NCBI RefSeq assembly: GCF_014898155.1
Contig: NZ_CP062938.1
Location: forward strand, 1,178,001 to 1,242,000
Length of the DNA stretch: 64,000 bases
DNA from: Bifidobacterium eulemuris
GTDB lineage: Bacteria > Actinomycetota > Actinomycetes > Actinomycetales > Bifidobacteriaceae
Direction of reading: 5' to 3'
Shown piece by piece: positions 44,030 through 53,953 of the stretch (within the stretch, counting starts at the first letter, position 1; every line of letters starts with the position of its first letter). Position numbers and translations under genes: made by a program. The notes beneath the pieces are model-generated. The model was not told where the DNA came from. It saw only the letters and a list, made by a program, of their open reading frames with translations, and did not search any database.

Positions 44030-45202
44030 TCAGGCGGCGCGACGGGAGAGGATGGATTCGAGACCCACACCCAGGGAATCCGACGTGGCGGCCGGCGGAT
44101 CGATATCCGTACGCTCCTCGCGGTCGTGGAAGGAGGCGGCGTCCTGCTCGGCGACCTTGCGGGCCTGTTCGGAGATCAGCTCGGCCGTCTCCTCGCCCAC
44201 CGGTTCGGCTTTGGCGACCTGGCGCATCGACTTGATCTCCAGGCTCTGCGGCTCGTCGGCGCGCTCCTCGACGATATTGCGCGGCGCCCCCAACGAGAAG
44301 GAGATGAGATCCTGCGAGACGGCCATCTCGAACGCGTCCAGAGCCTGCGATGGGCGGATCCGGTCGAGCTGCGTGGTGTGGTCGTCCTGCTGATCCGGCT
44401 GGACCTGCGCCGTCGGTTGGTCCTGCGATGCCTGCGGAACCGACTCCTCCGCCTGCCGCGCGGATTCGGCGGACTCGGACGGATGTCCATCCATACCATC
44501 GGAGGATAGGCCGTCGGCGGATGCGCCATCGGCCGCGGCGGCCTCACGCAGCGCCATCGCCTGGGCTTTGGCGATTTCGGCGTCACGCAACGCGCGGCGG
44601 ATCTCACGCTGTTCCATCACATCGGTATCGGCCTCGCCGACCGCGACCACCACCTCATCGGCGGGAGCATCCCCCGGCACCGGCTGTTCCGGAGCCTTGA
44701 CGGCCTGCGCGCCCCGCGCCTGCGAGCGCTTGGCGAGACTCACCTTCCGCTCCCACGCGCGGGCCTGCTTCGCCGCGTTGACGCCCAACGCCAGCACGAT
44801 GACGAGCAGCGCCGCGGGAATCAGCGCGAATAGCGGGCTGAAACGCAACACCACCGCCAGCACCAGCACCAGCACGGTGACGGCGGCCAACGACAGCACC
44901 AGAATGCGACGGCGACGCGCGGCCGCACGACGCAGCCCACGTATACGGGCGATATGCTCGTCGCTTAGTCTGGCCTGCGATGTTTCTGCCTGCACGGTCG
45001 TCCCTTTCGCCCATTGAGGTGGCTCATCCGTGAACCGCGTCCCGCTCTCGGCATCCACCAGATGCAGGGAGGGGGAGAATCGGTCCTGCCGATGTTCCGC
45101 CACTCGCTTCATACCGTTGGCTGTCCGGGCGGGCAGCCAGACGGCGATGAGAATCACGACGACCACCAGCACGACAACCGTACTCAGCGACTCGTAACCC
45201 AT
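44030..45202 (-). CDS. Membrane protein of unknown function
   Basis: A 390-aa protein starting MGYESLSTVVVLVVVVILIAVWL, so with an N-terminal helix (residues 7-24), then a charged stretch, two more close helices (about 115-160: ILVLSLAAVTVLVLVL and LIPAALLVIVLALG), and a long cytosolic tail rich in Glu/Ala/Gln/Asp. The Arg cluster RRAAARRRR precedes the helix pair. No family is recognised with certainty. GGAG is close upstream of ATG 45202; the frame is open further but without a ribosome site. It is followed by groES in the opposite direction of nothing related, so context gives no clue. Confidence 0.7.
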   Translation of the reverse strand: MGYESLSTVVVLVVVVILIAVWLPARTANGMKRVAEHRQDRFSPSLHLVDAESGTRFTDEPPQWAKGTTVQAETSQARLSDEHIARIRGLRRAAARRRRILVLSLAAVTVLVLVLAVVLRFSPLFALIPAALLVIVLALGVNAAKQARAWERKVSLAKRSQARGAQAVKAPEQPVPGDAPADEVVVAVGEADTDVMEQREIRRALRDAEIAKAQAMALREAAAADGASADGLSSDGMDGHPSESAESARQAEESVPQASQDQPTAQVQPDQQDDHTTQLDRIRPSQALDAFEMAVSQDLISFSLGAPRNIVEERADEPQSLEIKSMRQVAKAEPVGEETAELISEQARKVAEQDAASFHDREERTDIDPPAATSDSLGVGLESILSRRAA

Positions 45203-45294
45203 AAGCTCCAAGAATAGGAGATACCGTAACCATCTGTGCGCATGCTTCTGGGCGTGTCGGGCTGAAAGCACCTGAAAATCGGCTGATATGGCCC

Positions 45295-46834: not shown

Positions 46835-47032
46835 ATGCCCACGTATCATTATCGCTGCAAGAACTGCGGCTATGACTTCACCGAACACCAGTCGTTCGAC
46901 GACGACCCGATCACCGTATGCCCCGAATGCCATGAGGCGCAGGTGCGTAAGGTCTTCTCCGCCGTGCCGGTCACGTTCAAGGGCAGCGGTTTCTACCGCA
47001 CGGACGGCGCGTCCGGCGGCTCCACGAAGTAA
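46835..47032 (+). CDS. FmdB-family zinc ribbon protein
   Basis: A 65-aa small protein. The start MPTYHYRCKNCGYDFTEHQS and later VCPECHEAQ give two CxxC pairs that bind one zinc. The end is KGSGFYRTDGAS. Members are regarded as possible regulators, but the function is unproven. GGAGG lies 6 nt before ATG 46835. It follows the cyclo-ligase gene by 49 bp on the same strand. Confidence 0.9.
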   Translation: MPTYHYRCKNCGYDFTEHQSFDDDPITVCPECHEAQVRKVFSAVPVTFKGSGFYRTDGASGGSTK

Positions 47033-47102
47033 GGCGAGGCGCGCGAGGGGCGTTCCGGGCATACGACCGGGAGGTTTTGGTAAGTCGCACCAAGTTTTTT
47101 CG

Positions 47103-47165
47103 GTGGATAACCCGAGGCTGGAACCACATAGGCCGTTCCGGCTTGCGGTCGCATTCTTCCACAGG
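47103..47165 (+). repeat. Intergenic block shared with 54914-54985 (copy A)
   Basis: GTGGATAACCCGAGGCT, GGAACCACATAGG, CCGTTCC and a C/T-rich stretch are matched in the same order at 54914-54985. GGAAC and GTTCC are inverted, as are CGAAC and GTTCG in the other copy. It ends just before the SAF gene. Confidence 0.5.
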
Positions 47166-47178
47166 TCATCATGCAAGC

Positions 47179-47919
47179 ATGGTGACCTTTTTTCATAAGC
47201 GTGTTCCCCAACGGGGATCTCTGGCCCGTCGTCGTGCGACGACGCGGCTGCGGCGGTGGCTTGCGGCATGCTGCGCCGCGGTGGCCGTGTGCGCCGTGAT
47301 GTCCGCGGTGTCATCCCTGGTGACGACCACACCGGTGGTGGTGGCGCGGACGGCGATCCGGCGCGGGGAGACGATCGAGCAGACCGATGTGGCATGGGCG
47401 GATATGCCCGTATCGCCGACCAGCCGTCTGCTGGTCGACTCCACCGCATTGGTGGTGGGGCGTGTGGCGCAGGTCGACATCGACGTCGGACAGCCTTTCA
47501 CCACGCATATGGCGCGGGATTCCCCGGTCACGCCGGCGGGGCACACGGTGATCGAGGTGCGCCTGTCCAGCGACGCGGAACGGCTTATCGCCGGCGATAC
47601 GGTTTCGTTGGTGTCGGCCATGGGCTGCGACGCGGCCGTTGGGGACGCCCCGGAAGCCGTATCGGGGTCCGGTGCCGAGGCCGGCGCGGATGCCGGCGCG
47701 GATGCCGACAGGGATGTGAACGGGAAGGTAGGCGAGGATGCCGGTTTATTGGATGGTGCCTGCGTGCTGGCGCGATCGGCTTTGGCGATGGACCGCTCCC
47801 ATGCCGATGAGGCCTCGGCCTCCGCGGGATCGGTGGTGCCGTTCGCCATGCCGCCGCGCGACGCGCTGCGGGTGATGGCCTCGCAGGAGGCCGGCGCCAT
47901 CGTGGCCGTCACACGCTGA
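47179..47919 (+). CDS. SAF-domain membrane-anchored protein
   Basis: A 246-aa protein with a basic N-terminus and one helix (about 27-48, WLAACCAAVAVCAVMSAVSS), then a SAF domain with VVVARTAIRRGETIEQTDVAW, found in CpaB/FlgA-type proteins and in antifreeze/sialate families. It would face outside. The middle (about 155-190) is Gly/Ala/Asp-rich. CpaB helps assemble Flp pili, but no pilus genes are nearby, so the role is open. The ATG 47179 has no clear ribosome site. Confidence 0.75.
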   Translation: MVTFFHKRVPQRGSLARRRATTRLRRWLAACCAAVAVCAVMSAVSSLVTTTPVVVARTAIRRGETIEQTDVAWADMPVSPTSRLLVDSTALVVGRVAQVDIDVGQPFTTHMARDSPVTPAGHTVIEVRLSSDAERLIAGDTVSLVSAMGCDAAVGDAPEAVSGSGAEAGADAGADADRDVNGKVGEDAGLLDGACVLARSALAMDRSHADEASASAGSVVPFAMPPRDALRVMASQEAGAIVAVTR

Positions 47920-48003: not shown

Positions 48004-48216
48004 TCAACGCTTGTCGTTGAACACGGCCCAGTGCGGCGGCAGTTCGCCGAGGATGCGCTGGTCGTCATCGGCGGCGCGCTGGCGGTCGGTGACCATATCG
48101 CCCGGTTCGAGTTTGACGCCGTCCGCGTCGAAGAGTTCGGTGCCTTGCCGGACCACGCGCCTATGCTTGCGCGCGGTCCGCCGTTCGGCCGAATACGGTT
48201 CGCGCTCATCGGCCAT
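48004..48216 (-). CDS. 70-aa conserved-looking hydrophilic protein of unknown function
   Basis: A small protein, MADEREPYSAERRTARKHRR at the start, with a core VVRQGTELFDADGVKLEPGDMV and the end ELPPHWAVFNDKR. The VxLxPGDMV turn suggests a small beta fold; the first 20 residues are strongly charged. The start codon lies 2 bp after the stop of the 1204-aa helicase-like gene, with GGGAGGT 9 nt upstream inside that gene, so it is translationally coupled. It is the last gene of the FHA / helicase-like / small protein series. No family is recognised. Confidence 0.75.
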   Translation of the reverse strand: MADEREPYSAERRTARKHRRVVRQGTELFDADGVKLEPGDMVTDRQRAADDDQRILGELPPHWAVFNDKR

Positions 48217-48218
48217 GG

Positions 48219-51200
48219 CTACTTGACCTCCCGGTAGATTTCGGCGATGCGCGCCACGATGCGGTCGACCTCCTTGTCGGGGTTGACGAACGCGGCCACG
48301 CTCCACACGACCATCACGTTCCAGCCAAGCGTGTTCAGATTCTGCATCAGCAGACGATGGCGTTCCCTGGTGGATTGGATGCCCATGAACCCCGCGTCGT
48401 CGGTCAGCACGGCCAACGCGTACGGCTTGCCCTTGAGTCCGACGACCAGCGGGATCGCCATGCCTCGCTCGTAGCCGTACCCCACCGTGGCGTCGAGTCC
48501 GCGGGCGCGGATGCGGTCGGCGAGATCGGCGAACAGCACGTTGTCGCCGGAATCCTGTGTGCGGGGAGGCGTTGCCTGTTCGTCGAGCCGCTGGGCCCAT
48601 GCCAGCATGGACTTGAGCAGTTTGGGTCCGGGCTGGTGCAGACGCTCGTCGTCGAGATCATCGGCGGTGAACGCGCTGACGATATCCAGATGACGGTCGG
48701 CCAAGGCCAAGGCGTCCAACAGCATGCCGCGGCCGCCCTCATCCTCCAGCACGCCGAACTGCTGCAGCAGACGACCATGCGAGGTCTTCGCATAGCACAG
48801 CGACACGATCACGTCGGTGGCATGGGAACCGGCCACCTCACGCAAGGAGACCAGACGCACATGGCGCAGGAAACGGCCCATCGACTTGTTCTTCGCGGCC
48901 AGCGACTTCAGTTCGGAGCCGAGACGGGTGCGGAACACCTCGGTAAGCGTCACGACGGACAGCATGTATCCGGCCGGCACGATGGTGAAGCTCGCGGCGC
49001 GTTCGGTGATGATGCGCACCACCTCATCGATCTCGCGCTGGCTGGATTCCACCAGACCGGACAGCATCACCGGCACGCCGGTCGCCTCGAGCGCATGCAG
49101 GCGCACCTTGCCGCACATGGCTTCGGTGGCGGTGTCGTGACGCACCACGCCATAGCCTTCGGATTCGAGGAACGCGGTCAGGCGCGGGTCGCGACGCATC
49201 GGATGGGAGGTCACTTCGATATGCGGCAGCATATCCATCAGCAGCTTCAGGCTGGAGCAGGTCACCGTGGCACCATGGGCGAGCACGACGATCTGGCGGG
49301 CGCGGCTGACGATGGAGAGCATCTGGACGGCCGGAATATGCGCGCATGCATCGAGAATCGCCACGTCGGCGATCACCCCCGGATCGGTGAGCGCGGCGAG
49401 CGTGCCCGGGGTGGCCACCAGCACCGGCTTGGCGGCGGCGAGGATTTCGGGATGGTCGCGGCGAATGCGGCTCAACGGCACGTTGGCCCGCCCGGCGAGC
49501 ACCGTATGCAGCTGGTTCGCCTCCTGCGTGCGGGAGAACAGCATATCGCACAGACGACGCATCGACTCCTGCGCGACCATGGGGCCGACCGAGCGCACAT
49601 GCTCGACGTCCACCTGGGCGAACCGGTCGGAGACGGTTTGCAGGGCGGATCCATCCTGATTGGAGATGATGGCGGAGGAGCGCACGATATCCTCGAACAC
49701 CGTGGTCCACCATGCCAACTGCAGTTCGCCGCGCACGGCGTCGCCGTCCACGCGGCGCGCGCGCAGATCCTCGACGAATTCACCAAGGCCGCAGGAGGCG
49801 AACTCCTGCTCCAGACGGCAGCGCTCCGGCAGGGTGTCCAAGGCGATATGGTCGTCGAACAGCATGGTCAGCCGCTGTTCGGCATCGTTGAAATCCGAGG
49901 TTTCGAAATTGCCGCCCTGCGGAGTGGTGGACAGCACCGCGTCCAGCGCGGTCATATGCTGCGACACCGCCTCCTGCGTGGCGATGATCTCATCGAGTTT
50001 GCTCGGCAGCACGGGCCAGCCGCCGTGCGGCACGAACTGGTGCCACTGGTCGGCCTGCTTGGACACCACCTTCAGCGCCTCGTGCAGGTTCTCGACCTGC
50101 GCGCCGGCACGCAGCAGTCCACGGGCCTCCTTGACATGGCGTCGGCGTTCCCAGAACCCCATCGACGTGCCTTCGGCCTTGCGCTGCGCCTTGGGTTTGG
50201 TCGCCTCGATCATCGCGTCGATATCGCGTTCGAAGATCTCCGGCTGGAACACGTCAAGCACGCGGCGCAGATTCTTCAGCACGGTGACCTGGCGGCCCCA
50301 CTCGCGGGCGGTGGGAGGCACGGGGAATCCACAGGTCTCCACAGTGCGGGTCACCTGTTCGCGGGTGGCGGGCAGCAGCTTGCCCAGCAGATCGGACACC
50401 CGCTGATAGACGTCGACGGCCTCGTCCTCGGTGGTGATGGACGCGCCGAACCATGCGGTGTCGTCGGGGCCGATCACGAATTCGCCGAGCTCGCCGGCGC
50501 GTTCGAGCTTGCCGATCCACTCGTCCATCTGCCCGCCGATGCTTTGCGCGCATTCCCGGCTCAGACGCACGCGCGTGGCGGGATGCGTGGGCAGCACCGC
50601 GATGCGGGCCAGATTCTGGATGGTCTGGTAGGCGGAGACGCCCCACTGTTCGTTGAGGCCGTGCAGGTCGCCGAGATAACGGGTCAGACGCGAGCGCACG
50701 CCGACCAATTCGTCGGCCAGCTGGTCGAAGCGCTGGGTGGCGACGCCGGGCTGGAAGCCGACCGCGGTGATGAGCTGACGGTCGATGGAGGCGTTCATGC
50801 CGTCGTCGGCCACGTCAAGCATCAGTCCGCCGAGTTCGTTGGTGTTCATGGCCTGCGCGAAACGGCGCTTCTGCTCGGCCACGCCGGGCACGTACAGCAC
50901 GGAGCGCCCGCTCATCACGCAGCGTGTGGCGATGGCGACCGCCTGCCCCGCGGTGTCTTTGGCCACATCGCCGTCGACGACGATGCTGCGCCCGGAGGCG
51001 GCGACATTGGCGGCATAGCGTACGGTGTTGTCCACATCGCCAACCTCGTACTCGCCATGGGGGTCGGCGTCGAAGGGGCTGAACTGCGGCAGGTCGGCGT
51101 CGGACAGCGTGGCCATGGCGGCCTCGTTGCCCGCCAGAGCGTCCAGCAGCACGTTGCCGGTCGGCCCGTCCTCAAGCTGGTCGATCAGTCGCTGGCTTTC

Positions 51201-51833
51201 GCTCAGCGTCAACGCGGAGGGCTCCATGAAGCAGCCGAGCACGATGCGTCGTTCGATGGTGAAATCGGCGATTCGGGCCTCCGCCTCGGCGGCGATCTTC
51301 GCGAACATGGCGGAGGTCTCCGGAGTGCCGCTTTCATAGTTCGCGCCGTCGAACAGCGCGGCCTCGTCCAGCATGACGCCCTGGCTGTGCATCACGGAGA
51401 CGAACACGTCGTTAAGCGCCACATGCCCGGTGAAGCGGATCGTGGTGTTGCCCTCCGACTCGCCCACCTGGGGCAGCGTGACATCCACCGGATACAGCAG
51501 CACCGGCAGGGCGTTGCCGTGCCAGGTGGCGACGCCGACCGCCAGCGAAAGTTCGGCCACGCCGCTGACGCGTTGTTTGGCGTTGCGGTCGTCGATCACG
51601 CGCGAGATATGGCGGCCCGACGCTTTGAGCATGCCGCTGTCGCGGAACAACGCGGCGAGATTCGCGTGTCCGCTGGCGAACAGCTGGGCGATGCCGGAGG
51701 GATGGGCATGCGTCATGTCGAGCTGCGCGGACAGCTGCTTGATATCCTCCAACGGCGATGGCGGCAGCGCCGCACGGTACTGCTCACGCCACTGACGGAT
51801 CGTGTCGAGACGGCTATTGGTGTTTTCGGTCAT
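48219..51833 (-). CDS. Helicase-nuclease-like protein with lost catalytic motifs
   Basis: A 1204-aa cytosolic protein laid out like actinobacterial SF1 helicases of the DUF4011 type with a C-terminal Vsr/MTES_1575-like nuclease fold. Yet each motif is altered: the place of Walker A (GPPGTGKS) reads VVDGDVAKDTAGQA (about 290), the DEAS box reads ILDACAHIP (about 826), the GDxxQ motif reads LAHGATVTC, and the RRLNVAxTRAR motif reads GMLLDALALADR (about 1038). No GKS/GKT occurs anywhere. The nuclease part (about 1100-1200) keeps STRERHRLLMQNLNTLGWNV but its first Asp (normally IDL) is Pro-Leu. The frame is intact, so it is likely a working, non-enzymatic protein. It starts 8 bp after the FHA gene; ATG 51833 preferred, GTG 51845 possible. 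Confidence 0.75.
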   Translation of the reverse strand: MTENTNSRLDTIRQWREQYRAALPPSPLEDIKQLSAQLDMTHAHPSGIAQLFASGHANLAALFRDSGMLKASGRHISRVIDDRNAKQRVSGVAELSLAVGVATWHGNALPVLLYPVDVTLPQVGESEGNTTIRFTGHVALNDVFVSVMHSQGVMLDEAALFDGANYESGTPETSAMFAKIAAEAEARIADFTIERRIVLGCFMEPSALTLSESQRLIDQLEDGPTGNVLLDALAGNEAAMATLSDADLPQFSPFDADPHGEYEVGDVDNTVRYAANVAASGRSIVVDGDVAKDTAGQAVAIATRCVMSGRSVLYVPGVAEQKRRFAQAMNTNELGGLMLDVADDGMNASIDRQLITAVGFQPGVATQRFDQLADELVGVRSRLTRYLGDLHGLNEQWGVSAYQTIQNLARIAVLPTHPATRVRLSRECAQSIGGQMDEWIGKLERAGELGEFVIGPDDTAWFGASITTEDEAVDVYQRVSDLLGKLLPATREQVTRTVETCGFPVPPTAREWGRQVTVLKNLRRVLDVFQPEIFERDIDAMIEATKPKAQRKAEGTSMGFWERRRHVKEARGLLRAGAQVENLHEALKVVSKQADQWHQFVPHGGWPVLPSKLDEIIATQEAVSQHMTALDAVLSTTPQGGNFETSDFNDAEQRLTMLFDDHIALDTLPERCRLEQEFASCGLGEFVEDLRARRVDGDAVRGELQLAWWTTVFEDIVRSSAIISNQDGSALQTVSDRFAQVDVEHVRSVGPMVAQESMRRLCDMLFSRTQEANQLHTVLAGRANVPLSRIRRDHPEILAAAKPVLVATPGTLAALTDPGVIADVAILDACAHIPAVQMLSIVSRARQIVVLAHGATVTCSSLKLLMDMLPHIEVTSHPMRRDPRLTAFLESEGYGVVRHDTATEAMCGKVRLHALEATGVPVMLSGLVESSQREIDEVVRIITERAASFTIVPAGYMLSVVTLTEVFRTRLGSELKSLAAKNKSMGRFLRHVRLVSLREVAGSHATDVIVSLCYAKTSHGRLLQQFGVLEDEGGRGMLLDALALADRHLDIVSAFTADDLDDERLHQPGPKLLKSMLAWAQRLDEQATPPRTQDSGDNVLFADLADRIRARGLDATVGYGYERGMAIPLVVGLKGKPYALAVLTDDAGFMGIQSTRERHRLLMQNLNTLGWNVMVVWSVAAFVNPDKEVDRIVARIAEIYREVK

Positions 51834-51841
51834 ACTTCGAC

Positions 51842-53392
51842 TCACTTTCCAACTGCCTCACGGTAGTCCTGATATCCCTGATTGCGGGCGAGCGCCTCGT
51901 CGATATCGCGGTTTCCCTGCGCGGCCAGCCACGCATAGAGGTCGTCGTACAGCGAGGGGTTCATCGCGAGGAACGGCAGCAGTTCCGGATGCCGCGCCAT
52001 TTCGAACTGCATGGCAAAATCCTCGGTGCGACGGGCATCGTCGGAGTTCAGTCCGTCAACCTGCACCACCTGCTCCTGGGCGTCGAATTCCCCCTTGGAG
52101 ACGCGCTCGAACACGGAACCGGGCTCGAACGCAGGAGTGTAGGCGTCGGCGGCCATATCATTGCCGGATTCCATCGCGGTGAACGTCATCGAAGCGTTCG
52201 CCGCCGTGGCGGTGGGCGTCGCGGCGGATGCCACGGTCGTGGTCGGAGTCGGGGAAGCATCCTCCATGGGAGCGAACACGATCCGCTGCGGCTCGGCCGT
52301 CTGCGACTCGATCACTTGCGGCTCGGTCGTCTGCGCCATCGGCGTATCGCCTTCGCCCTGAGCTTCGGGTTCGACGGCCGCGTACGAATCGGAGGCCGTC
52401 TCGTCGACCGGCGCGATCCGGTCGGACGCTGCCGGCTGGTCGACGGGCTCGGACTGCGCAGCGAACACGGACTGCGCGACGAACACGGACTGTTCCGCGG
52501 ATTGCGCGGCTTCCGCAGCCTCAAATGATCCGGACGCCGCGAACGACAGCGCGTCGGCGGATGCCTCGGTCTGCGCTTCGGGCATCGCCTCCGGCTTGTC
52601 GGCATCAACCGGCGCGGCATCGGTCGGAGTCTCGGCCACGGCGGCCACCGTCGCGAACGGATCGACCGACGCCGGCTGCATGGCGACCTCGTCGGCGGCC
52701 AGCGGCACCAGCTGCGGCGCGGCCTGCGTCTGGGACTCCCCGGCCGTGGTGGCCACCGCGTCGGCGAACAGATCGCGGGGCTGCTCAGGTTCACGGTCGA
52801 GCTGGGTCAGTGGATTGGAGAGATCGAGCTCGCTCACCCTGCGCTTCACACTGGCCGCGTCGAACATACTGGTGGGCTCGCCGGCCCGCAGATCGAGAAT
52901 ATCGTCCACCGACATATCGGCGGCGTCCGGCTCCTGTTTGGCGGGTTCGACCGCGAAACCGAACAGGTCGGGCACGGGCGTATCCTCCGGTTCCGCCTCG
53001 ACCGGCTGCTCGAGGCGGATCAGATCCACCGGCACATCGCCGAACTGCATGCGCATCGGCGAGGTGGGCAGCAGAAAGTCGACGCCCGCCGGCAACCGCA
53101 GCAGGTCGCCGTTGTCCCGCACCACATAGGTGCCGTTGGTCGAGTTCAGATCGCAGATGACCGCGCCGCCGGACTGCTGCACTTCGAACACCGCATGCCG
53201 TTTCGACATCGACTTGGTGCCGTCGATCACATCGACGCGCGTATTGCCGTCATCCGCCAGCGGACGCAGCGGCTTACGGCCGATCTCAACGCGCTCGCCC
53301 GGTTTGACGCTGACATGGTCGATCCCATTGATTCTCACCGTCCACTGCACCGTGCCAGCCTTCCTTTCACGCAAAAACACACTACGAGCCAT
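51842..53392 (-). CDS. FHA-domain protein with disordered linker and LRV-like C-terminus
   Basis: A 516-aa protein. Residues about 15-105 form an FHA domain that binds phosphothreonine: ERVEIGRKPLR, SMSKRHAVFEV and CDLNSTNGTYV carry the conserved Gly-Arg, Ser, His and Asn-Gly. Then comes about 300 residues rich in Ala, Gln, Glu, Thr and Pro, surely disordered. The last 70 residues (MARHPELLPFLAMNPSLYDD and AWLAAQGNRDIDEALARN) look like a leucine-rich-repeat-variant unit. Partner phosphoproteins of a PknB-type kinase are to be expected. ATG 53392 has AAGGA 11 nt upstream. The helicase-like gene follows after 8 bp. Confidence 0.88.
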   Translation of the reverse strand: MARSVFLRERKAGTVQWTVRINGIDHVSVKPGERVEIGRKPLRPLADDGNTRVDVIDGTKSMSKRHAVFEVQQSGGAVICDLNSTNGTYVVRDNGDLLRLPAGVDFLLPTSPMRMQFGDVPVDLIRLEQPVEAEPEDTPVPDLFGFAVEPAKQEPDAADMSVDDILDLRAGEPTSMFDAASVKRRVSELDLSNPLTQLDREPEQPRDLFADAVATTAGESQTQAAPQLVPLAADEVAMQPASVDPFATVAAVAETPTDAAPVDADKPEAMPEAQTEASADALSFAASGSFEAAEAAQSAEQSVFVAQSVFAAQSEPVDQPAASDRIAPVDETASDSYAAVEPEAQGEGDTPMAQTTEPQVIESQTAEPQRIVFAPMEDASPTPTTTVASAATPTATAANASMTFTAMESGNDMAADAYTPAFEPGSVFERVSKGEFDAQEQVVQVDGLNSDDARRTEDFAMQFEMARHPELLPFLAMNPSLYDDLYAWLAAQGNRDIDEALARNQGYQDYREAVGK

Positions 53393-53495
53393 TGTGTCAT
53401 GCTTCCTTGAGAATTCGCGGATTGTCCTCAAGGATTAACAACTTCCGCCGATTTCCCCCCGTTGTGAACCCTCCGGTCCACGCCCGACTATGCGG

Positions 53496-53530
53496 AGAAC
53501 CCCGCAGTCCATACGGAACTGCGGGGTTCT
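53496..53530 (-). terminator. Hairpin terminator after rplL
   Basis: AGAACCCCGCAG and CTGCGGGGTTCT pair around about 11 nt, 40 bp past the rplL stop. Confidence 0.7.
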
Positions 53531-53569
53531 TCCAAGCGTCGCAATAGGCGGGTTTCACACCCGCGCGTA

Positions 53570-53953
53570 TTACTTGAGCTCGACGGTGGCGCCAGCCTCT
53601 TCCAGCTGAGCCTTGGCCTTCTCGGCGTCTTCCTTCTTGGCCTTCTCCAGGACCGGCTTCGGAGCGCCGTCCACGAGAGCCTTGGCCTCGGCCAGGCCGA
53701 GGTTGGTGATGGCGCGCACGGCCTTGATCACCTGGATCTTCTTGTCGCCAACGGCGGCGAGGACGACGTCGAACTCGTCCTTCTCTTCCTCGGCGGCGGC
53801 AGCAGCGCCCGGAGCGGCGGCGACGGCGACGGCGGCCGGAGCGGCGGCCTCGACATCGAACTTCTCCTCGAAGGCCTTGACGAACTCGGAGAGCTCGACG
53901 AGGGTCATCTCACCAAAGGCTTCCAGCAGCTCTTCGTTGGTGTACTTAGCCAT
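53570..53953 (-). CDS. rplL: 50S ribosomal protein L7/L12
   Basis: The 127-aa stalk protein (bL12) recruits translation factors. The N-terminal dimer domain starts [20 protein letters not shown]; the hinge is Ala/Glu-rich; the C-terminal domain has [20 protein letters not shown] and [16 protein letters not shown]. It follows rplJ by 111 bp and shares its transcript. Confidence 0.98.

Follow-up and report, generated by a model that had tools for sequence, protein, structure and literature searches.

What keeps a large helicase-like gene in a bacterial chromosome when the catalytic motifs of both its enzymes appear to have been replaced? The question is raised by a locus of Bifidobacterium eulemuris (NCBI RefSeq assembly GCF_014898155.1, contig NZ_CP062938.1, positions 1,178,001 to 1,242,000), in which three adjacent genes encode a protein with an FHA and an LRV_2 domain (FHA-LRV), a 1204-residue superfamily 1 (SF1) helicase-like protein with a C-terminal Vsr-like nuclease fold (the large protein) and a 70-residue protein (the small protein). 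Positions refer to the window, the whole stretch of 64,000 nucleotides that was analysed. An earlier note, made from the sequence alone, had given the coordinates, the order and the 8-bp and 2-bp spacing of the three genes correctly and had proposed a phosphorylation-linked, non-enzymatic binding complex. Of these elements, a non-enzymatic binding complex is the most economical reading. The explanation that we favour, at a probability somewhat above one half (about 0.55), is that the large gene is an old, largely vertically inherited occupant of a fixed chromosomal slot, that its product now works as an ATP-independent scaffold with a detachable tail, and that an FHA-LRV adaptor serves it in Bifidobacteriaceae.

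The motif loss in the large protein is coherent across motifs and concentrated in the motif windows. Alignment with intact relatives and a pattern search bear out the statement that Walker A, DEAS, GDxxQ and RxxxxxTRAR are all replaced (Table 1): the Walker lysine has become T294, DEAS reads DACA with its glutamate changed to A829, and RxxxxxTRAR reads MxxxxxALAD. Neither GKS/GKT nor [AG]xxxxGK occurs anywhere in the 1204 residues, and no stop or frameshift interrupts the gene. Sixty-seven of the 267 columns conserved in 11 intact copies are lost across 76 dead rows, and the SF1 motif windows hold 40 of these 67 columns against 34 of the 200 retained ones (Fisher p 1e-10, a descriptive value only, as the windows were drawn by hand after the lost columns had been listed). 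In the nuclease-fold region two acids are missing rather than the one first counted (D to P1128, E to L1143); D1145 is the sole remaining acid and is kept along with R1156, R1158 and R1160. The same state holds in all 59 Bifidobacteriaceae copies, in which the first acid is proline, the second is never glutamate and the third aspartate is kept.

The family assignment is sound, because the intact relatives L071 and L072 give Pfam matches to AAA_11, AAA_12, DUF4011 and MTES_1575. The large protein itself matches MTES_1575 (PF18741) with an E of 3.3e-9 and 37.1 bits, just below the cut-off of 38.2, and DUF559 elsewhere in its sequence, below threshold (E 0.097). The layout first suggested for it was of DUF4011 type, but DUF4011 (PF13195) was not detected among its own Pfam matches to E 1; the domain, also found in the partly degraded L067, has probably diverged beyond Pfam detection. 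A sequence search against solved structures gave no match. An AlphaFold model built from 65 aligned sequences (predicted local distance difference test, pLDDT, 89.4; predicted template modelling score 0.76) has two RecA-like domains in the Upf1-like (SF1B) arrangement, and keeps the P-loop strand 280-283 and helix 290-303 where the alignment places the P-loop (model numbering is the residue number minus 4). The best solved-structure matches by VIA-align are Upf1, senataxin, Sen1, IGHMBP2 and Dna2, an entry missing from that list not being taken as a missing fold; Foldseek ranks the spliceosomal helicase Aquarius first by E-value, with a poor root-mean-square deviation, followed by Upf1 and its relatives. 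The matches gave no hint of an intact second ATP site, an absence of evidence and not proof.

The large gene of Bifidobacteriaceae is under strong purifying selection. Over 41 close pairs from 53 loci, chosen by dN < 0.06 (a choice that favours low values), the pooled ratio of nonsynonymous to synonymous substitution (dN/dS) is 0.051 (median 0.042, maximum 0.107), far from the value near 1 that would have spoken against retention by selection; the closest pair of the window's own copy gives 0.107. In the same pairs the former motif segments give 0.070 and the nuclease region 0.042, and the pooled value for the small gene is 0.074. A looser set of 197 pairs with dS 0.1-1.0, which mixes in distant pairs with underestimated dS, gives values of 0.012-0.66 (median 0.29). 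When pairs are ranked by dS alone, dN/dS is 0.012-0.107 for the 24 lowest (dS 0.108-0.449) and 0.655 for the next pair, L014/L043.

Selection of this kind acts on a gene that is almost always present. A match was found in 181 of 189 Bifidobacteriaceae genomes (159 of the 161 good ones) and in 389 of 396 genomes of the sample of the order Actinomycetales (375/379 good ones), presence being a match at E 0.001, in some cases incomplete or without proof of a position in the slot; two or three matches in one genome (G052, G090 and others) can be one gene in pieces. Among the good misses in the order, G209 and G325 match a broader model, giving 377/379, and G253 and G308 remain (170 and 580 contigs). 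All 24 further genomes, which cover 12 families and mostly had weak or partial earlier matches, have a match, and none has GK[ST] at the Walker site (one row is cut off there). The gene is kept even in a Bifidobacteriaceae genome of 0.8 Mb (G180, locus L076), as is the FHA-LRV gene. The two good misses of the family, G152 and G177, have neither the large gene nor a full FHA-LRV match (the small gene was not searched for); this co-loss was dropped as evidence of linkage, since both also have no rplL next door and an assembly gap is likelier. In wider samples, which include some members of the order, any match occurs in 151/296 genomes of the class and 43/149 of the phylum, many of them partial, and full-length matches outside Actinomycetales recur mainly in family f38. 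The loci examined further were chosen among the best-scoring matches, so that the outgroups do not form a random sample, and some loci are represented twice (among them L001/L013, L056/L164, L060/L205 and L123/L201, as well as several Bifidobacteriaceae genomes).

The position of the gene is equally constant. At 127 of 153 loci it adjoins at least one of mscL, fmdB, the 5-formyltetrahydrofolate cyclo-ligase gene, a SAF-domain gene and rplL, and in nearly all of these mscL, fmdB or the cyclo-ligase gene is convergent and downstream. None of these neighbours is found at the other 26, which include 11 of the 17 loci from outside the order and several short contigs, and six f38 loci, also outside the order, share the slot. 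The large-gene tree, from which L066 and L118 (truncated) were omitted, largely follows families, with f17 split. The Walker lysine is gone from 59/59 Bifidobacteriaceae and 137/142 other Actinomycetales copies (after the removal of eight duplicate rows, from 229 to 221, with three more not assessable). The five intact copies of the order, from family f4 and part of family f17, all sit in the slot and are therefore positional orthologues and not unrelated defence genes. Intact orthologues, which the earlier note would have counted against its proposal, thus exist in the same slot, but none was found among the 59 Bifidobacteriaceae copies.

Loss is the likely direction of change, since the seven remaining copies, all of them from outside the order, are intact; the ancestral protein was probably active, with at least two losses of activity since then. 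The state of the Walker lysine changes at least three times on 88 rows and twice on 50 rows, and a single loss for all dead copies is weakly rejected (AU p 0.034, log-likelihood 66.6 lower); the dead copies of the order could form one clade (support 58). Many independent losses were considered and rejected, the lysine changes numbering only two to three. The trees are quick ones (LG+G4) with long branches and uneven composition, and most motif columns (windows I, II-III and VI) were left out. Gene transfer into the slot, replacing the resident copy, may have acted in place of loss. Several copies, among them L067, L069, L087 and L113, combine dead helicase motifs with all three nuclease acids, so that the helicase may have been lost first; these copies might be intermediate forms, possibly still cutting DNA. 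AddB is similar in logic to such dead-helicase, intact-nuclease proteins.

The large gene and the small tail gene form an order-wide pair, sometimes fused. The 70-residue protein has no Pfam match to E 1 and ends in a tail with the consensus [ND]DxR[LI]xx[DE]xPPHW, mostly N/D-D-x-R-L-x-x-D/E-V-P-P-H-W in 107 rows from other families and D-D-x-R-I-L-x-E-L-P-P-H-W in 63 Bifidobacteriaceae rows; the search imposed the letters PPH, so the information lies in the positions that flank them. With a stricter pattern the tail was matched in 162/205 downstream stretches against 3/205 on the reverse strand and 0/205 upstream. At 17 loci (12/206 and 5/24 further ones) the large protein itself ends in the tail, and because of these fusions the large and small proteins are likely to form a complex. 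A basic segment was matched by its regular expression in 76/95 separate small proteins from other families, 43/64 from Bifidobacteriaceae and 1/12 fused rows, and by eye it also precedes the fused tail in L152, L161 and L064. Within the order the pairing is independent of motif loss, because the tail also accompanies intact copies, following L071, L116 and L117 and ending L072 and L108; among the 17 loci outside the order it was seen in L092 only. PPHW was also considered as a genome-wide tail and rejected: 25 DNA matches in the genome of the window stood against eight in a reversed control, and among the 20 matching loci that were read, only the small gene showed the tail context.

The third gene has a narrower range. 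Directly upstream of the large gene, the LRV end was found in 54/54 Bifidobacteriaceae rows (L001/L013 being one locus); the FHA part is visible in 45 of these, and in eight others the frame runs off the 1.5 kb examined. The FHA-LRV gene also lies upstream in 10/10 further Bifidobacteriaceae rows, some from the same genomes, and was found beside the large gene at 0/80 other named loci and 0/25 further loci from other families. The proposed three-gene order is thus conserved across the order for the large and small genes, but for the FHA gene only in Bifidobacteriaceae, and a link to phosphorylation, to judge from the FHA domain only, would be a lineage-specific addition and not a core feature. 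Residues G38, R39, S61-K64, H66 and S84-G87 of the FHA domain, which we take to be those that contact phosphothreonine, are invariant in 13 orthologues. The protein also has a sub-threshold match to DUF3739 (E 0.14). Elsewhere, a protein with two LRV_2 matches lies at 420-1965 of L234 (G152), convergent to a small FHA protein, and the open reading frame just before it is PP2C-like by eye, not confirmed by Pfam; adjacent FHA-type and LRV-type matches also occur in G165, G176, G177, G180 and G182. Since FHA and LRV genes are neighbours in these genomes, the window's FHA-LRV protein may unite two components of a single signalling set.

Around these genes, the hairpin downstream of rplL (Table 1) is probably the rplL terminator, and because of this the three genes are likely to be their own transcription unit; a consensus scan listed neither a terminator (the scan asks for a T-run) nor a sigma-70-type promoter there. 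An alternative GTG start 12 bases upstream would extend the large protein to 1208 residues. Near the slot, a 413-residue protein with a hydrophobic N-terminal stretch (44030-45271, - strand) has no Pfam match at E 0.001.

Table 1. Features of the three-gene locus and its surroundings (window positions)
Feature	Position	Strand	Basis or remark
FHA protein, 516 aa, with C-terminal LRV_2 domain	51842..53392	-	Seen as a partner in Bifidobacteriaceae only
FHA domain, phosphothreonine-type residues kept (GR, SMSKxH, STNG)	53108..53287	-	Pfam PF00498, E 6e-8, above cut-off
LRV_2 domain of FHA protein	51881..51997	-	Pfam PF25591, E 8.8e-12
Large protein, 1204 aa, motif-dead SF1B helicase-like, C-terminal Vsr-like (MTES_1575) domain	48219..51833	-	ATG start
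Former Walker A, residues 288-295, GDVAKDTA (intact relatives GPPGTGKS; K to T294)	50949..50972	-	Alignment
Former Walker B, residues 827-830, LDAC (intact FDEA)	49344..49355	-	Alignment
Former motif III, residues 852-857, AHGATV (intact GDxxQLPP; GDxxQ to AHGAT)	49263..49280	-	Alignment
Former motif VI, residues 1036-1046, GMLLDALALAD (intact RRLNVAITRAR)	48696..48728	-	Alignment
Vsr-like nuclease-fold region, residues 1095-1204	48222..48551	-	Pfam PF18741 and alignment
Small partner protein, 70 aa	48004..48216	-	2 bp after large gene
Basic segment RRTARKHRRVV of small protein	48151..48183	-	Regular expression; related basic run in many small proteins
Conserved C-terminal tail motif DDDQRILGELPPHW of small protein	48028..48069	-	Tail profile, with strand and upstream controls
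Strong hairpin between rplL and FHA gene	53490..53575	-	Fold z-score -7.2
Convergent fmdB-type zinc-ribbon and SAF-domain genes	46835..47919	+	Part of conserved chromosomal slot

The scaffold would have arisen from an active DUF4011/SF1B helicase/Vsr-like nuclease, a relative of Hhe, ProA and PDC-S37. The fold, the slot and the small partner were kept as most sampled families lost the ATPase motifs and Bifidobacteriaceae also lost the nuclease acids. By analogy with RecC, the helicase-shaped body and the nuclease-fold module may hold nucleic acid or a partner protein, and the module, with D1145, R1156, R1158 and R1160 kept, may bind nucleic acid without cutting it. The small protein would act as a detachable C-terminal tail, made of the basic segment and a docking peptide with the PPHW consensus, and in Bifidobacteriaceae the FHA-LRV protein would tie the complex to threonine-phosphorylated proteins. 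Motif loss, fold, selection, order-wide conservation in one slot and the pairing and fusion with the small gene are observed; the physical complex, its lack of catalysis in most sampled families, its binding of nucleic acid, the docking of the tail and the link to phosphorylation we infer. More tentatively, these proteins may make up a near-universal core complex of Actinomycetales, in which the PPHW tail of a non-catalytic scaffold recruits a common partner and FHA-LRV adds control by phosphorylation in Bifidobacteriaceae.

Several observations weigh against the scaffold. The claims of binding and interaction are drawn from sequence and a structural model. The columns that we take to be SF1 motifs Ia, IV and V, which contact nucleic acid, are degraded along with the ATP motifs, so that helicase-style binding of nucleic acid may be lost too and the body may bind protein instead. 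Some relatives keep the nuclease triad, so that non-catalytic does not describe every member of the family. A pattern search found no tail at 32/206 loci, 16 of them outside the order (of the 16 within it, L180 and L206 carry the tail on reading), and none within 600 bases downstream in nine of the 24 more diverged members (L247, L258, L260, L261, L262, L263, L265, L266 and L269); contig ends cut some of these, and in others the tail may be altered or absent. In the AlphaFold model of a naturally fused member (only 5 of the 44 rows behind it are fused) the tail is undocked and disordered, with a pLDDT of about 32-43, a result that speaks neither for nor against docking. The FHA gene is the least constrained of the three, with a dN/dS of 0.234 taken from those of the pairs that fall within the 32 loci in which a motif search located it. 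Finally, the FHA-LRV frame of L028 is broken within the stretch examined, with 154 stop-free residues against at least 495 in the eight run-off loci, through a frameshift, an assembly error or a shortened protein.

Among other explanations, an anti-phage role survives best and is still unlikely. The large protein would be a chromosomally fixed, non-catalytic defence component, derived from Hhe/ProA-type proteins and acting as a sensor or regulator of another nuclease; its closest models are indeed ProA, Hhe and PDC-S37, and intact members carry the full motif set. Defence genes usually have a patchy, mobile distribution, whereas this gene holds a fixed slot in nearly all sampled genomes of the order, with a family-following tree and a very low dN/dS, and its scores lie far below the equivalog cut-offs of NCBIfam (154 of 1500 bits for ProA, 59 of 2000 for Hhe). 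A factor linked to RNA or the ribosome, an Upf1/IGHMBP2-like RNA-binding scaffold positioned after rplL in Bifidobacteriaceae, is more doubtful. Most of the best fold matches are Upf1-group RNA helicases, but the fold is common to the DNA helicase-nuclease Dna2; rplL lies upstream in 9/11 Bifidobacteriaceae rows of the slot survey (window included) but turned up in none of the other 142, and the strong hairpin separates it from the three-gene unit. Slightly less probable again is a nucleotide-binding switch, whose altered P-loop would bind nucleotide without hydrolysis and change shape on binding. In its favour, the model retains the P-loop's strand-loop-helix, and the window protein has both D828 and K292, the latter two residues before the lost lysine. 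Against it, K292 is not conserved within Bifidobacterium, and the loss extends jointly to motifs I, Ia, II, III and VI. A decaying gene without function, which the disappearance of the catalytic motifs of two enzymes might suggest, is scarcely credible: the pooled dN/dS (0.05 overall, 0.07 where the motifs used to be) rejects the pseudogene reading, no internal stop occurs among the matches listed in the Bifidobacteriaceae search, and the gene persists in the 0.8-Mb genome.

Retention of a near-universal large gene in so small a genome, with both enzymes apparently silenced, points to a probably central role masked by the annotation 'helicase', and its conservation and pairing with the tail suggest that the gene is not broken but encodes a core scaffold so far unrecognised. 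One slot holds orthologues that look active, half-dead or fully dead, a natural series for the change from enzyme to scaffold, and the conserved PPHW tail gives a partner search a concrete bait. In Bifidobacterium, the proposed complex of the large protein is a possible target of the Ser/Thr phosphorylation network.

Known systems share parts of this picture. RecC of RecBCD has helicase and nuclease folds that are both non-catalytic and serves as a scaffold. The large protein resembles it, by motif analogy only, in combining a dead helicase and a dead nuclease, but differs in partner architecture; no link to RecB/RecD or homology to RecC was searched for. PriA has a known role in replication restart. 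The Deinococcus PriA pseudohelicase (PMC4504706) is likewise reported to keep a conserved bacterial helicase fold after loss of activity, but belongs to a different helicase family. In Pseudomonas aeruginosa, a DUF4011 gene is reported as one of the core genes that flank a defence hotspot (PMC10250203), and a transposon study of B. breve UCC2003 reports 53 essential hypothetical genes (PMC5514069). The MTES_1575 giants of Actinobacteria are described as combining HEPN, SF1 helicase, Vsr and winged-helix (wHTH) domains (PMC3710099) and have been proposed to act in defence; like the large protein they fuse a Vsr-type restriction endonuclease domain, the namesake of PF18741, to an SF1 helicase, but in the large protein Pfam detected none of the HEPN, transglutaminase and winged-helix domains. 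A literature search, with preprints and most subscription papers outside its range, returned no description of the family as a dead, order-wide branch with a tail partner. Closest are ProA, PDC-S37 and Hhe, to which NCBIfam and PADLOC link the C-terminal third of the large protein (E 3e-45 for ProA, 8e-49 for PDC-S37). They share its order of helicase followed by nuclease, with similarity in helicase domain 2 and the nuclease region, but their models span about 1550-1900 positions against 1204 residues. In the large protein DUF4011 was not detected, motifs I, II, III and VI are not intact and two of the three catalytic nuclease acids are replaced; like it, the intact L071, L108, L096 and L102 score below the equivalog cut-offs. 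With its replaced motifs, core chromosomal slot and tail-protein partner, the large protein represents a motif-dead branch of these helicase-nucleases, unexpectedly universal in its distribution.

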